A stretch of DNA of 64,000 bases from Pollutibacter soli (lineage in GTDB: Bacteria; Bacteroidota; Bacteroidia; Chitinophagales; Chitinophagaceae): assembly GCA_029269725.1 (NCBI GenBank), contig JARJHS010000002.1:248001-312000 (forward strand), in the 5' to 3' direction. The notes below the pieces were generated by a model. The model was not told the DNA's origin. It saw only the letters and a list, made by a program, of their open reading frames with translations, and did not search any database. Made by a program: the position numbers and the translations under genes. Below, piece after piece: positions 57,721 through 64,000 of the stretch. The number at the start of each line of letters is the position of its first letter. Positions within the stretch are counted from its first letter, which is position 1.

Positions 57721-58053
57721 TTATGCCGCCATTTTTCTGCACTCCGCAGCGCATCTTTTACATGCTTCGGCGCACTCTCTGCAATGCTTATGCTCATGTT
57801 GTCCGCATTCTGCTCCACATGCATCACAAATATCCGCACAGATCAAGCAAATTTTTGCCGCCTGGGAACTACCGAGACTCATCAGTTGTGCAGCAGAATA
57901 GCAAACCGCAGCACATTCCATATCCAGCTGGATACATTTGGCCATCATATGGATATGTTCTTCCTGTGTGCATGAACTAGCACAATGATTACAAATGGCG
58001 GCACAATTGAGACAAGCTTCAATACAAGATTTATGGGTATGATAATCATTCAT
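57721..58053 (-). CDS. Four-helix-bundle copper-storage protein (Csp/DUF326-like)
   Basis: 110 residues from the ATG at 58053 (an upstream in-frame ATG at 58080 is possible). It contains 19 Cys, many spaced CxxC or CxxxC on predicted helices (CIEACLNCAAICNHC, KICLICADICDACGAEC, CRECAEACKRCAAEC), plus a His-rich loop (GQHEHKHC). This is the pattern of Csp proteins, whose helix-lining Cys bind many Cu(I) ions. The lack of a signal peptide fits the cytosolic Csp3 type. No copper pump or regulator is adjacent. Confidence 0.85.
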   Translation of the reverse strand: MNDYHTHKSCIEACLNCAAICNHCASSCTQEEHIHMMAKCIQLDMECAAVCYSAAQLMSLGSSQAAKICLICADICDACGAECGQHEHKHCRECAEACKRCAAECRKMAA

Positions 58054-58528
58054 ATGGAAGTTTTTTAATGGTGTCACCAAAATCCTGCCAGCGGGTTCTC
58101 CTGGAAAGAATGGTTCGGATCACCTAGATGGCATATGGCGGCCGGCCATTAATTGTAAATCCGGTCGTGAAAGAGGAAGTTTATTGATTACAGGAGGTAA
58201 TGCTGCTTCGGGAATTTCAAAAACGATTTGACCGATATTGGTATGGCTCGGCCTGCTCAAACTATTTTTGCAGGTACAGGAACTTTCAAAAGCCCCTGAA
58301 CAAAATGACCTCGGATTTAAACTTTAATGAGCCAATAACAATAGCTGTTTAATCGTTTAAGCAAAATCGGTTACTTTTGCTTTATTAAAGTGTTTTAGGT
58401 ATTTCAAAGGAATCTTTTTCCACCTGTTTAAAAACAGATGTACTCCGACGATCAGCTCACGCCATTTGCAAATTCATTGACTCACAGATGATTGCCGCAC
58501 CATTTATTGGTAAGCAAATGAACTTATT
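58054..58528. other. 475-bp intergenic region between the copper-storage and MFS genes
   Basis: No gene is supported. TACTTTTG at 58372-58379 fits the -7 consensus TAnnTTTG, but it lies about 150 bp before the MFS start and lacks a clear -33 box. If used, it would give a long 5' leader. The motif CCACCTGTTTAAAAACAGATG near 58420 contains a short inverted repeat (CTGTTT / AAACAG). Confidence 0.45.
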
Positions 58529-59731: not shown

Positions 59732-59739
59732 TAAAACCC

Positions 59740-59778
59740 GGGAGGTCTTAAACCTGGGAGGTCTTAGACCTCCCAGGT
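59740..59778. repeat. Tandem 16-bp repeat and near-perfect hairpin
   Basis: GGGAGGTCTTAAACCT (59740-59755) is followed directly by GGGAGGTCTTAGACCT (59756-59771), 15/16 identical. ACCTGGGAGGTCT (59752-59764) and AGACCTCCCAGGT (59766-59778) form a perfect 13-bp inverted repeat around one base. No T-run follows. Confidence 0.9.
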
Positions 59779-59864
59779 AGTATAGTCCGGGTTGCATTCT
59801 GGCTGTCAGGCAGAAGGCCTTTTGTTGAATTCTCTGATAATCTGATTCTGATTTTTTTCCTGTT

Positions 59865-59916: not shown

Positions 59917-59990
59917 TCCTCAGTAGCTCAGCTGGTTAGAGCATCTGACTGTTAATCAGAGGGTCACTGGTTCAAGTCCAGTCTGAGGAG
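59917..59990 (+). tRNA. tRNA-Asn (anticodon GTT)
   Basis: 74 nt. The acceptor stem TCCTCAG / CTGAGGA pairs fully, with G as discriminator. D-arm AGCTCAGCTGGTTAGAGC, anticodon arm TCTGA-CTGTTAA-TCAGA with anticodon GTT at 59951-59953, and T-loop GGTTCAAGTCC are all present. CCA is not encoded. It marks the start of an AT-rich minus-strand gene cluster. Confidence 0.97.
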
Positions 59991-60001
59991 CGTTGCTAGT
60001 C

Positions 60002-60033
60002 AAGGGTTTCATTAACTGGAACCCTTTTTTATT
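60002..60033 (+). terminator. Terminator after tRNA-Asn
   Basis: AAGGGTTTC pairs with GGAACCCTT with a one-base bulge, followed by TTTTATTT. Confidence 0.65.
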
Positions 60034-60042
60034 TCTCCTACC

Positions 60043-60065
60043 ACGACACATTGACGACACAATTG
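60043..60065. repeat. Short direct repeat downstream of tRNA-Asn
   Basis: ACGACACATTG (60043-60053) is followed at once by ACGACACAATTG (60054-60065). It lies between the tRNA and the first island gene. Whether it is an integration footprint is unknown. Confidence 0.5.
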
Positions 60066-60096
60066 AGTAATTAAAACTAATAATGATAGTAAGTAC

Positions 60097-60996
60097 TTAA
60101 TGAACTCGAAAGCTCTCTTTTCGTAAACAAAGGGCCTGTTTTGAAGGATGATTTGCTATGCGAGCCGGTAATGTTATTTTAGTTCCATTAAATGACTGGT
60201 AGTAAGGATCTAAAACCAAAGGACTTACGTTAATTACATATTCCTCATCTATATACAATAACCCATTATCATAAAGCCTGTGAATATCCACTCTCAATAA
60301 AATTCCATTTCTTATATGATTAGAATTTTTGTTGATATACGGCTGAATATGGGCCGCTTCTAATAATTCTGGCAAACATGGCCCAGAAACACAACATTGA
60401 TTATTATAAGCACCCAGAATTCTGCCTTTAAACATTCCTTGACCCACCCTAACCGTCGCTAGCCTACGATGCCGCGGTAAATCATCATCTATCAACACGA
60501 ATTCATTTGCATTCAAATTTTCAAAAATCTGAGGTTCTGCTTGCTGGAAATACTTCATTTTAACGACCTGAGAGGGAAAAGAAATTCCAAGATCATTAGG
60601 AGACATAAAATATTCCTCATCCCAGTATTCACAGTTTTTGAGGACAATGCATCCAATTCGATGTGTATTTACTGAAAAGTCATCATTATTGATAACCTTA
60701 CTATTTCTTTGGAGATAATTAATAATGCTTTCAAACATGAGTTCTTGTGAGGCTCTTCCATTTCGTAGACCGAACTCATTCCAAGCCTCAGTGGCTGAGA
60801 TGTTCTTATAAAGTACAAACTCCCCGAAACCACCTAGTTTACGATAAGGAGATTTTAGTAAAAAATACAATTTGTCTCCGATACTCAATTTGCTAACATT
60901 CCAAGGTGTAGGTGTCCAAAAATTTACAAAGGAATTGAAACCGTTGTCTTTTAGATAATTAAACCAATTTAAATCAGTGGGCGATACTGCAAACAT
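60097..60996 (-). CDS. HNH endonuclease with unassigned N-terminal domain
   Basis: 299 residues. The C-terminal half has an HNH_2-type nuclease core: CCVSGPCLPELLEAAHIQP, RNGILLRVDIHRLYDNG, which give His, Asn and His in the expected order. The first roughly 140 residues (W-F-N ... KLSIGDKLYFLLKSPYRKLGGFGEF) look like a PUA/EVE-like small beta domain, the kind used to read modified bases in type IV restriction enzymes; that fold is inference. It is the last gene of a three-gene minus-strand run, 43 bp after the previous one. Codon use is AT-rich compared with the core genes. Confidence 0.8.
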   Translation of the reverse strand: MFAVSPTDLNWFNYLKDNGFNSFVNFWTPTPWNVSKLSIGDKLYFLLKSPYRKLGGFGEFVLYKNISATEAWNEFGLRNGRASQELMFESIINYLQRNSKVINNDDFSVNTHRIGCIVLKNCEYWDEEYFMSPNDLGISFPSQVVKMKYFQQAEPQIFENLNANEFVLIDDDLPRHRRLATVRVGQGMFKGRILGAYNNQCCVSGPCLPELLEAAHIQPYINKNSNHIRNGILLRVDIHRLYDNGLLYIDEEYVINVSPLVLDPYYQSFNGTKITLPARIANHPSKQALCLRKESFRVH

Positions 60997-61039
60997 GATA
61001 ATTACAATATTTTGATGGAAACAAAAATTGTCGACTGGC

Positions 61040-61699
61040 TTATTTTTTTGCTAATATTAGAGGCTTCCTAAGTGTTTTCTTAAACGCATCTTGTAGATAT
61101 GCACAATCCGTTTCGATATTCAAAATATCTTCAAAGTTGTCATTAAGCAATGCTTCATCAAGGCCCATTTTAAAATTGCCATAATCAGAATAATTAACAT
61201 CAAGATGATACAATGGATGCCGTCTGCCATTAGCGCGCTCCTTATCAAAATCGTATCTTATATAACAGGGCTCAAACATTATTATTTCTTCGAGCAAATT
61301 GAAAACAGCATCATTTGGAGATTGCTGTCTAAAATAAAAACCAGTCAGTGAAGGATTATGTAAGAAATTTTCATCATTTAGTATTTCGAAACATTTAGAA
61401 ATTATTTCCGAATCTATGTTTACACCCCATCTTGACCGAATTGCAAGAACTTCTTCCTTTTCAATGTCAACAAATAAAGGGAACGCGAAACTTAAAAATT
61501 TGCTTTGCTTAAAAATGAATATTCTACTCATTTTGCCCACTACCAGCTTCATTGAACTTTCTGTCGACTCGTTGGGCTTTAATAATAGAAACCTTGAAAC
61601 ATAAAGAATACTTTTGGCATAATGAATTTTATCTCTCATTGCTGAAAAAACCTGGCCTTCTTGAAAAGGCAATAAGAATCGTGAAATTTCTTTAGCCAT
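61040..61699 (-). CDS. DUF2290-like protein paired with an SF1 helicase
   Basis: 219 residues, function unknown. The segment CYIRYDFDKERANGRRHPLYH, then LDVNYSDYGNFKMGLDEAL, follows the pattern IRFD-D ... HP..HL ... of DUF2290 proteins as I recall them; I cannot check this by search. No signal peptide or membrane segment is seen. Its start overlaps the helicase stop by 8 bp, so the two are translationally coupled and probably act together. Confidence 0.65.
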   Translation of the reverse strand: MAKEISRFLLPFQEGQVFSAMRDKIHYAKSILYVSRFLLLKPNESTESSMKLVVGKMSRIFIFKQSKFLSFAFPLFVDIEKEEVLAIRSRWGVNIDSEIISKCFEILNDENFLHNPSLTGFYFRQQSPNDAVFNLLEEIIMFEPCYIRYDFDKERANGRRHPLYHLDVNYSDYGNFKMGLDEALLNDNFEDILNIETDCAYLQDAFKKTLRKPLILAKK

Positions 61700-63704
61700 T
61701 TTGATCTTCCAAATATTTTAAATTATCTATTACAAATTGGGTTAAAGTTTTTTCGTCGCTCCCCATCATTCCAAGTTGCTGAGCAACTGAGAAGAGTCGG
61801 TTATGATATTTCTTTTCTATTTTTTTCTTTCTGAAAATATCCATCATTATTTCGTGGTATGATCTATCTCGATACATTTTCATAAACCGAGTCATGATCT
61901 TTTTTTGTTCTGTCTCGGAGGGCTGATCTATAACCATTTCATTCTTCCTTAAAATGTGGTCAAGTCCATCTTTAATCTCTTTGCTTAACCCTGAATTCTC
62001 GTCTTCCTTTATCAAAAAATATGTTTTTATAAATGATCGAGTAATCATTGTATAAAGAGAATTCCTATAGCTCGGTGTTTTTAGAATCTTAATTGTCACG
62101 CATATTACAAATGGAAATTCTAGCCCTTTCACATTGTTTTTATTCGAAAGGAAAATTTGATTAGGCCGTTTCGTTTTTGTTTCATAGGCCTTATTTACAG
62201 GCCATGAAAATTTTCTTTGGATACTAACTTCCAACTGATCTGCCAAATCATAGATATACCTGTAGTCGTCCAATAAAATTATTCCGATATCTTCAGGTAA
62301 TACAGTCTCGTTTTCCTTCACGATGTGAGATAGTATGTCAATTATGTGCGAATCGAGATTATTTTTTGCTTCGATTATTTCGATGCTATCAAAGTCATCA
62401 TCAATATCTTCAAATCTTCTCAATGGTTCACGACTAAGGTGAAGCTTTTTTCTAGCATCTACTGACACATTATAACCGCAGGCTATCCACTCATTTTCAT
62501 CCAACCAGCGTAATTTCTCTTTTTCAAATAATCCCATTCCCAAGGCATGGCCGAACATTAGAGTCTTCGGATCAGTTCTATAACATTTGCCTAGGAGATA
62601 GTCTGGTTTTATAGTGTGTGCTAATTTAGCTTGATCAAAAATACTTTGAAAGATGTCGCCAGCTATGTATACATTCTTCTCAGTTACAAATTCGCAAAGC
62701 TTAAAAAAATTTTCATCAAAATCTTGACTCTCGTCTATTATTATATAACTAAAGGCATACTCTGGAGAATCATCTATGTACTTTTCTTGCAAGTCTTTTA
62801 ATGCCAACTCACACGCCTTACTGAAACTCATGACGGAAGAATATCTGTAAAACGGAATACTATAAAAATGGCAGATATAAGAATAGACGCCGGAATGATA
62901 ATAGCTACCTGAACCCCATGCATTCCTACACCAAAATCTTTTTTCCCAATCAATCTGCTGTTCAACTTTCATGAAGTTGAAGAAAGAAGGAATTCTTTGT
63001 CTAAGATTGTCCGAGAGCACCTTATTATGGCAAGTAAAGAATATTTTCGATTCTTGATTTTGGATGTATAGGTCCTTCAATTTATGTAATAGAAGTTCAG
63101 TTTTCCCTGTTCCGGAGAGCCCTTGAATTGTTACACGTTTTGAGTGTGGGACCTGATAGACAAATCTTGTTTGGTCGCCATCGAATAGTTGAATTTTCTG
63201 TTTGACTTTATCAAGTACAGTTTCAGGCACTTCGTCTTTTACTCGATCAACGTCATTAATACTTCCAATTAAGAGAGAGATTAGCAGGTCTACTTTTTTA
63301 ATTTCAGCCGGATCCTTGAGCTTCACACTTGTAAAAAAATTTGGAATGTCTTCCAATTTTGATGGGTCTTTAATCACTTCAATCAGAACACCTTTCCAAT
63401 TTCTAGGCCGCCCTACAATAGAGCGGTATAAATATTTATCAGATATGGAAGTCAAATCCTCAAGAAAATCTTCAACGTAGTTTTCAAACTTATGCCTGCC
63501 TTGTCCAAAGTCGACAACCGAAATTTTATGTCTAGGAGACAATAAAATTAAAGCGTCTTGGTAGTCGTAGCTATATTTTTGATCTAACGGCCCACTGATA
63601 ACATACACTAATTGCTTTTTAGTTTCTGAATAGATTTCGAGATCTTTTAATAAAGTGTCATCTAGTCCTCCGCTCGAAATCTGCGAAAAAAAATAACTTG
63701 TCAT
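61692..63704 (-). CDS. SF1 (UvrD-like) helicase/ATPase with a novel N-terminal region
   Basis: 670 residues. Helicase motifs run in order: Walker A GLSGTGKTELL (about residue 197), Ia-like FFTCHNKVLSDNLRQ, motif II IIIDESQDF, motif III AGDIFQSIF, motif IV-like CYRTDP, motif V NVKGLEFPFVI and motif VI YTMITRSFIKTYF. The first 185 residues match no family I know; a beta-rich part (DALILLSPRHKISVVDFG) vaguely recalls NERD-type nuclease-like domains but lacks a clear ExK. It is cytosolic. It is the middle gene of the minus-strand island cluster; the gap to the gene upstream is 68 bp. Confidence 0.85.
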   Translation of the reverse strand: MTSYFFSQISSGGLDDTLLKDLEIYSETKKQLVYVISGPLDQKYSYDYQDALILLSPRHKISVVDFGQGRHKFENYVEDFLEDLTSISDKYLYRSIVGRPRNWKGVLIEVIKDPSKLEDIPNFFTSVKLKDPAEIKKVDLLISLLIGSINDVDRVKDEVPETVLDKVKQKIQLFDGDQTRFVYQVPHSKRVTIQGLSGTGKTELLLHKLKDLYIQNQESKIFFTCHNKVLSDNLRQRIPSFFNFMKVEQQIDWEKRFWCRNAWGSGSYYHSGVYSYICHFYSIPFYRYSSVMSFSKACELALKDLQEKYIDDSPEYAFSYIIIDESQDFDENFFKLCEFVTEKNVYIAGDIFQSIFDQAKLAHTIKPDYLLGKCYRTDPKTLMFGHALGMGLFEKEKLRWLDENEWIACGYNVSVDARKKLHLSREPLRRFEDIDDDFDSIEIIEAKNNLDSHIIDILSHIVKENETVLPEDIGIILLDDYRYIYDLADQLEVSIQRKFSWPVNKAYETKTKRPNQIFLSNKNNVKGLEFPFVICVTIKILKTPSYRNSLYTMITRSFIKTYFLIKEDENSGLSKEIKDGLDHILRKNEMVIDQPSETEQKKIMTRFMKMYRDRSYHEIMMDIFRKKKIEKKYHNRLFSVAQQLGMMGSDEKTLTQFVIDNLKYLEDQNG

Positions 63705-63772
63705 TGTTTGAATTTAATGCTCGACAAAATAAATATTTTGGTTGGGTACCTAACGTTGACGTATTGCGAAAT

Positions 63773-64000
63773 TTAGTCTAAAGGTGCCGTATCGACCGCT
63801 CCCAAATTATTGATTGGAGTTACTCGAAATAAAGTTGGTTCAAATTTATAAAATGGCTTCAATTGAGTTTCGCAATTGATAAAATAAATTTCTGCCTTTT
63901 GGGTTTCCAAATTAAGATTATATACTCTGTAAATGAAATAGTTTTTTAGTGTATTCATCATTCGAATTTCGGTTTCTGTTAGGTAGAATGGGGCCTGCGA
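63773..64000 (-). CDS. C-terminal end of a DUF3883-like protein (cut by window edge)
   Basis: At least 75 residues; the frame is open to the window edge at 64000, so the start is outside. The end reads APFYLTETEIRMMNTLKNYF, then YRVYNLNLETQKAEIYF and FEPTLFRVTP, which fits the C-terminus of DUF3883 domains (pattern: F.LT..E ... Y.LYRVYN ... F.L.P..YRV). DUF3883 is a nuclease-fold-related domain often found in large helicase- or defence-associated proteins. It is upstream of and in the same direction as the helicase gene. Confidence 0.6.
   Translation of the reverse strand, partial: SQAPFYLTETEIRMMNTLKNYFIYRVYNLNLETQKAEIYFINCETQLKPFYKFEPTLFRVTPINNLGAVDTAPLD

Follow-up and report, generated by a model that had tools for sequence, protein, structure and literature searches.

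Four adjacent genes at the right-hand end of a 64,000-nucleotide stretch of the Pollutibacter soli genome (GenBank assembly GCA_029269725.1, contig JARJHS010000002.1, positions 248,001 to 312,000; the whole stretch is called the window below) encode a NOV_C protein, a superfamily 1 (SF1) helicase, a DUF2290-like protein and an HNH endonuclease. The first-pass annotation had listed them as a candidate new defence system, and the locus raises the question of whether the four genes act together and what the helicase and its DUF2290-like neighbour might do. The results described here suggest that the cargo probably consists of separate defence units, the central one being the helicase and DUF2290-like pair, in which the helicase would sense abnormal DNA and control an effector.

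The description of the cluster as AT-rich, on the minus strand and adjoining tRNA-Asn was borne out by the open reading frame (ORF) coordinates, by the tRNA found with ARAGORN and by the GC content, which is 0.33-0.36 in the four genes against 0.429 in window positions 1-59900. The analysis was carried past the window edge in a stretch designated L002 (L002 position + 57999 = window position). The features are as follows.

59917-59991, plus strand: tRNA-Asn (GTT), the integration target (ARAGORN)
59946-59991: att repeat of 46 bp, the 3' half of tRNA-Asn, with an exact second copy 9771 bp on (L002:11718-11763)
60097-60996, minus strand: HNH_2 endonuclease gene (Pfam HNH_2), 299 amino acids (aa), N-terminus without a family; separate cargo
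61040-61699, minus strand: DUF2290-like, STM2766-family helicase-associated protein (NCBIfam), 219 aa, with the signature Y-x-R-x-D-x-D...H-P-x-x-H-x-D; proposed effector
61692-63704, minus strand: SF1 (UvrD-like) helicase of the STM2767 family (Pfam, NCBIfam), 670 aa; proposed sensor and regulator
63773-64000 (window end), minus strand: 3' end of the NOV_C gene (NOV_C being the renamed DUF3883), separate cargo; in full the gene encodes 376 aa and extends to window-equivalent 64903

Pairing of the helicase and DUF2290-like genes

The two central ORFs overlap by 8 bp (61692-61699), as the first-pass annotation had noted in proposing that they form a coupled pair. Separate searches of 294 genomes of the family found the helicase in three and the partner in the same three, the genome of origin included, and among 395 genomes of the phylum the NCBIfam models of both proteins hit the same two, one of which was again the genome of origin. 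Further loci came from one scan each of genome contigs (nine loci, two of which coincide in place with two of the family hits), viral contigs (one locus) and plasmids (26 records). Sixteen of the plasmid records were opened; the unopened H2, H7 and H8 hold full-length matches with scores equal to those of opened ones. The pair is spread over three phyla and one phage contig, with relatives in Flavobacteriaceae, Chitinophagaceae, Dyadobacter, a Bacteroidales metagenome-assembled genome, Lachnospiraceae, Acinetobacter and Pantoea, as well as in Salmonella, Lacticaseibacillus, Lactococcus, Exiguobacterium, others and the phage contig.

A helicase was taken as (near) full-length if its alignment covered some 76% or more of the query. 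There were 16 distinct opened loci of this kind besides the window, and in all 16 the partner directly follows the helicase on the same strand. Fifteen of these partners were recognised by BLASTP to the window protein (E <= 2e-8); the sixteenth, from Exiguobacterium, is annotated as DUF2290 and was not significantly matched to that protein by BLASTP. Across 18 pairs, that of the window among them, the spacing of the two genes lies between -8 and +13 bp, and distances among helicases follow those among partners, with r 0.93 for 18 pairs and 0.91 for 16 (0 of 5000 permutations), values that are not corrected for shared descent. The pairing is far beyond chance; the two genes are a conserved pair, and the coupling first proposed for them was upheld. 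The unannotated Proteus record also has a signature-bearing ORF behind the helicase ORF, and in the phage contig the pair lies downstream of terminase and portal genes. Among INPHARED phage records there was no match to the helicase and none to a DUF2290-annotated E. coli protein.

Two of these loci have further features. The terminase of the phage contig (L020:1954-4311) matches an intein splicing domain. In Gynurincola (L010:4568-14777) the genes ahead of the pair include two that by eye resemble those of a Vsr nuclease and of a cytosine-specific DNA methyltransferase, one for a kinase/ORC-CDC6-like protein and one for a HATPase protein matching type II restriction endonuclease models, a second defence-island context.

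Relationship to the Helicase+DUF2290 system

The combination of genes had initially been taken for one without a name. We rejected this reading, as both proteins match NCBIfam families (release 20) far above cut-off: the helicase matches NF053713 (STM2767 family) with 881 bits (cut-off 550) over residues 3-662, and the partner NF053714 (STM2766 family helicase-associated protein) with 184.7 bits (cut-off 70) over residues 9-203. These matches are near full-length, the two-gene order is the same in the other loci scanned and no difference between the NCBIfam pair and the window pair was found; the family names carry no function. In Pfam the helicase matches UvrD_C_2 (37.2 bits, cut-off 27.4), AAA_19 (31 bits, cut-off 25.1) and UvrD-helicase (25 bits, cut-off 23).

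Rather than a new system, the window pair appears to be a diverged sister of a published one, Helicase+DUF2290 (Rousset et al. 2022, PMC9122126; PADLOC PDLC03002, PDLC02998/02999), in which a UvrD-like helicase likewise precedes a protein of ~200 aa with R-x-D...H(P)xxH and the carriers are mobile. The PADLOC check that had been proposed gave a divided answer: the helicase matched the Helicase model with 90.9 bits, but the partner reached just 18.2 bits with DUF2290, over 54 of the 195 profile positions. Two other partners from the clade of the window pair (the window clade) gave no PADLOC hit at 0.001. A DUF2290-annotated pair from an E. coli plasmid scored 988 (helicase) and 277 (partner) bits in PADLOC, and in NCBIfam its helicase reached 105.7 bits for STM2767 and there was no STM2766 hit at 0.01. 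When 19 helicases were placed in a tree, a branch with support of 100/100 split the three annotated with DUF2290 from the other 16; two rows of this tree sit on long branches, and the composition of one row is unusual. Of the opened plasmid records with weaker helicase matches, eight have an annotated DUF2290 gene adjoining.

The partners of both clades share a signature. R148, D150, H161 and H165 (window numbering) are invariant in 14 of 14 aligned partners (12 from the window clade and two DUF2290-annotated), nine DUF2290-annotated proteins retain R, D, H and H, and 16 window-clade partners retain Y146, R148, D150, D152, H161, P162, H165 and D167. Comparison of profiles from the two partner clades gave a probability of 87% (E 4.3e-6) over 53 columns around the signature, the remainder being unaligned; when the set was broadened, the probability was 81% (E 1.3e-5). 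Since the partner falls under the curated DUF2290 threshold and homology is supported by the signature and the profile comparison, we filed it as a sister clade and not as a member; by these comparisons the window pair is a separate, deep sister clade of the Helicase+DUF2290 system. In those parts of the literature on lactococcal plasmid systems that were accessible, no name for the window clade was found. The relationship links two families that are listed separately in the databases searched, namely the tested Helicase+DUF2290 and STM2767/STM2766, known by name only.

In an alignment of 11 helicases the helicase motifs GLSGTGKT, IDESQDF, GDIFQ, YRTDP, NNVKGLEFPF and YTM.TRSF are conserved with nearly all columns invariant. 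An AlphaFold model of the helicase (pLDDT 77.7) had human SLFN11 and SLFN14, followed by Dna2 and Upf1, as its top solved matches, the best being SLFN11 (E 7e-13). Against Pfam SLFN-g3 the helicase reached 12.8 bits (cut-off 24), and when the alignment of helicases was used for a sequence-profile search of PDB, no hit reached 0.001. For the partner (AlphaFold pLDDT 81.6), searches of Pfam, of PDB sequence profiles and with Foldseek detected no significant known nuclease or toxin fold. A likeness between its R-Y-D...H motif and toxins of the TumE type was not borne out by Pfam and was not used.

The cluster lies at the cargo end of an integrated element

Window positions 59946-64000 are the cargo end of a 9.8-kb element integrated at tRNA-Asn. 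The 46 bp of the tRNA 3' half recur exactly 138 bp past an integrase gene, so that the element spans 9771 bp between the repeats and reaches window-equivalent 69762. The first-pass annotation had four real genes in view; what it could not include, as the element continues beyond the window edge, was the rest of the NOV_C gene, the primase, the integrase and the second att site. All genes are on the minus strand, in the order HNH, DUF2290-like, helicase, NOV_C, a 149-aa ORF (without a family in Pfam and PHROG scans), DUF6371, D5_N/DUF5906 primase/helicase, HTH_17 and tyrosine integrase. The integrase matches Phage_integrase with 62.8 bits (Pfam) and the primase/helicase matches TIGR01613 primase_Cterm, P4 family, with 190.9 bits (NCBIfam). 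In a search for an empty integration site, 11 tRNA-Asn loci of the genus (1.6-3.1 kb) were compared; none matched the element or its adjacent flanks, and three matched only a gene on the right side, ~10 kb away from the element.

With its integration at a tRNA end, tyrosine integrase, HTH/excisionase-like protein, P4-family primase/helicase and defence-like cargo, the element resembles P4-like satellites and phage-inducible chromosomal islands. Its host, however, belongs to the Bacteroidota. No capsid-size, packaging or terminase genes were recognised among its nine proteins (Pfam, PHROG), apart from a weak terminase-small-subunit match of the HTH protein (20.6 bits); for this reason we do not call it a satellite.

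A search with the primase found kin in 11 of the 294 family genomes, the genome of origin included, at E <= 1e-20, and 13 stretches were read from these matches. Two of the kin elements, L044 and L050, are bounded by repeats of the tRNA-Asn 3' end (57 and 49 bp) and carry cargo that differs from that of the window: a resolvase with a 696-aa protein without a family, and SRAP. A third, L046, has a 15-bp repeat at the end of tRNA-Phe and carries an AIPR gene matching AbiU (102.8 bits, PADLOC). At L047 (1080-6673), from another genome of the family, matches to DISARM DrmA (588 bits) and DrmB (202 bits) adjoin a related integrase/primase backbone; no tRNA was found there, and the DISARM-like genes may lie outside the element. 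Together these loci point to a family of elements in Bacteroidota that integrate at tRNA genes, have a P4-type primase and vary in cargo (the pair with NOV_C and HNH; AbiU-like; DISARM-like adjoining). A comparable changing cargo is described for P4-like satellites of E. coli (PMC9122126).

Possible function of the pair

Functional evidence comes from the sister system. One study reports that a helicase and DUF2290 protein from a P4-like satellite hotspot specifically inhibit phage T7, and gives Vibrionaceae and Bacillus prophage hotspots as further locations of Helicase+DUF2290 (PMC9122126). In a second, PA1372/PA1371 of Pseudomonas aeruginosa PAO1 are assigned to Helicase+DUF2290 by prediction tools (PMC11637435), and a plasmid study states that without PA1372 a plasmid no longer imposes a cost and its rep expression is lower (PMC4410645). 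The role of the helicase domains of this system had not been explored according to a 2023 review (PMC10952713).

Setting out from the element, the strict pairing, the co-divergence, the conserved helicase motifs, the common signature and the mobile and defence contexts, we infer for the window clade an anti-phage function, separate sensor and effector roles for the two proteins and a catalytic role for the signature, and hold this to be the likely explanation. In such a scheme the SF1 helicase would load on abnormal invader DNA, such as ends, forks or replication intermediates of a phage or plasmid. Its ATP-driven movement would then activate or deliver the DUF2290-like protein, the conserved R-D...HPxxH site of which may act on nucleic acid, with the outcome that either the invader would no longer replicate or the infected cell would cease to grow. 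The two-gene plan of a helicase plus a partner is also that of Gabija and Hachiman, the latter described in an abstract as a helicase sensor with a nuclease effector; unlike in these systems, the window partner has no significant fold match, and GajB models match the window helicase weakly (<= 22.2 bits, PADLOC). The four residues invariant in both clades offer a direct mutational test of this mechanism.

Several observations weigh against this reading. The window partner scores 19.1 bits with Pfam DUF2290, under the cut-off of 25 and over 58 residues only, and the window helicase is remote from the three sister-system members, being 26-28% identical to them over part of its length only. The pairing has two departures from strictness: a weak helicase match in Haloferax has no such partner annotated, and Parabacteroides has only a 150-residue helicase fragment and no partner. 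The top structural matches of the helicase have query TM-scores of just 0.28-0.37 (SLFN11 0.37), and no structure in PDB or BFVD was matched by the partner model at E <= 0.001 (Foldseek), which makes the biochemical activity of the partner a guess. In the plasmid study the authors attribute the effect to raised rep expression and not to defence, and state that the compensatory mutations are not general adaptations to plasmids (PMC4410645). Finally, no phage test of any STM2767/STM2766 member was found in the literature as covered by titles and abstracts, by which the papers naming STM2767 are not on defence.

A more far-reaching version would make STM2766/DUF2290 an effector family, with a fold without a solved relative and an R-D...HPxxH site that cleaves nucleic acid, switched on by the paired helicase, for which the Schlafens rank best among solved structures. 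The pair would then be a two-gene bacterial counterpart of the Schlafen nuclease and SF1 helicase, and plasmids, phages and tRNA-integrated elements would have carried its two deep clades through the bacteria. We consider it unlikely that all of this holds.

Mobile residence also fits a different role, in which the pair serves competition between mobile elements by acting on plasmids or integrating elements, with phage protection minor or absent; 26 plasmid records match the helicase and one locus lies within a phage structural region. Anti-phage systems commonly reside on plasmids and phages, however, so such residence is usual for them too. The removal of plasmid cost and the lowered rep expression on loss of the sister helicase PA1372 (PMC4410645) would agree with competition, but the sister pair blocks T7 (PMC9122126), and we judge this role to be rather unlikely.

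A toxin-antitoxin or addiction unit, in which the DUF2290-like protein is toxic, the helicase restrains it and the element is thereby stabilised, would explain the tight two-gene arrangement, the small second protein with its conserved polar signature and the mobile context. To our knowledge, however, antitoxins are unlike a 670-aa helicase with conserved motifs, and the partner reached no toxin family at E <= 1 in Pfam, which makes this option distinctly improbable.

The HNH and NOV_C genes as separate cargo

The two neighbours of the pair probably act on their own. The HNH and NOV_C proteins were compared with the ORFs (90 aa or longer) of 21 other loci of the pair (19 distinct, L057-L065 excluded), and no homologue of either was found (best E 0.49 and 0.61); in the absence of such homologues both genes are treated as separate cargo. 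The first-pass annotation had allowed the HNH gene to be either part of the pair or a separate restriction unit, and it is the separation that was supported. A single system of NOV_C, helicase, DUF2290-like and HNH genes, which the common strand, the gaps of 68, -8 and 43 bp and the similarly low GC would allow to be co-transcribed, is extremely unlikely and was rejected, since neither gene has a homologue in the other pair loci searched and both match models of other defence genes.

The HNH protein matches HNH_2 with 46.3 bits (cut-off 21, Pfam), and from residue 171 its C-terminal HNH part aligns to the modification-dependent enzyme VcaM4I (PDB 6yex; PMC7897488). Unlike in VcaM4I (EVE-HNH), no EVE or other sensor domain was detected in its N-terminus by Pfam and PDB searches, and it reached 32.8 bits with PT-DNA_restrict, far under the cut-off of 180 (NCBIfam). 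A modification-dependent (type IV-like) restriction nuclease is a plausible identity. The NOV_C match is 17.5 bits for the gene as cut by the window (under the cut-off of 22.1) and 58 for the complete gene (Pfam), the protein of which has, by eye, a hydrophobic N-terminal stretch. Its C-terminal NOV_C part accounts for PADLOC matches to PDC-S36 (99 bits) and to PD-T4-1 (80 bits), the latter a single-gene system; ~200 N-terminal residues lie outside the match. By these family assignments the integrase-distal end of the element holds three adjoining defence-like units, and the locus does have the appearance of a defence island that was first ascribed to it.

Flanking sequences

Scans for regulatory sites gave 16 promoter sites against 21.5 in shuffled sequence and nine terminator-like sites against 3.4, and neither was used as support. 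Beyond the second att copy (L002:11764-12560, window-equivalent 69763-70559) there are two tandem GIY-YIG genes, 97% identical. The first is followed by a further 3' fragment of tRNA-Asn, part of which has given way to a perfect palindrome of 18 bp; this palindrome occurs at three exact places in the genome. The arrangement resembles an insertion unit that is repeated and makes use of the end of the tRNA. Further along the right flank (L002:12662-16002, window-equivalent 70661-74001) the translations read as arsenic-resistance-like proteins, with an Acr3-like transporter, an ArsM-like methyltransferase and an ArsR-like regulator. On the other side, upstream of tRNA-Asn, a palindromic repeat of ~47 bp (window 59732-59783) has many copies genome-wide, with 84-100% identity among the matches listed, and window 57721-58080, after an RND efflux gene, encodes a small Cys/His-rich protein that by eye resembles a copper-storage four-helix protein.

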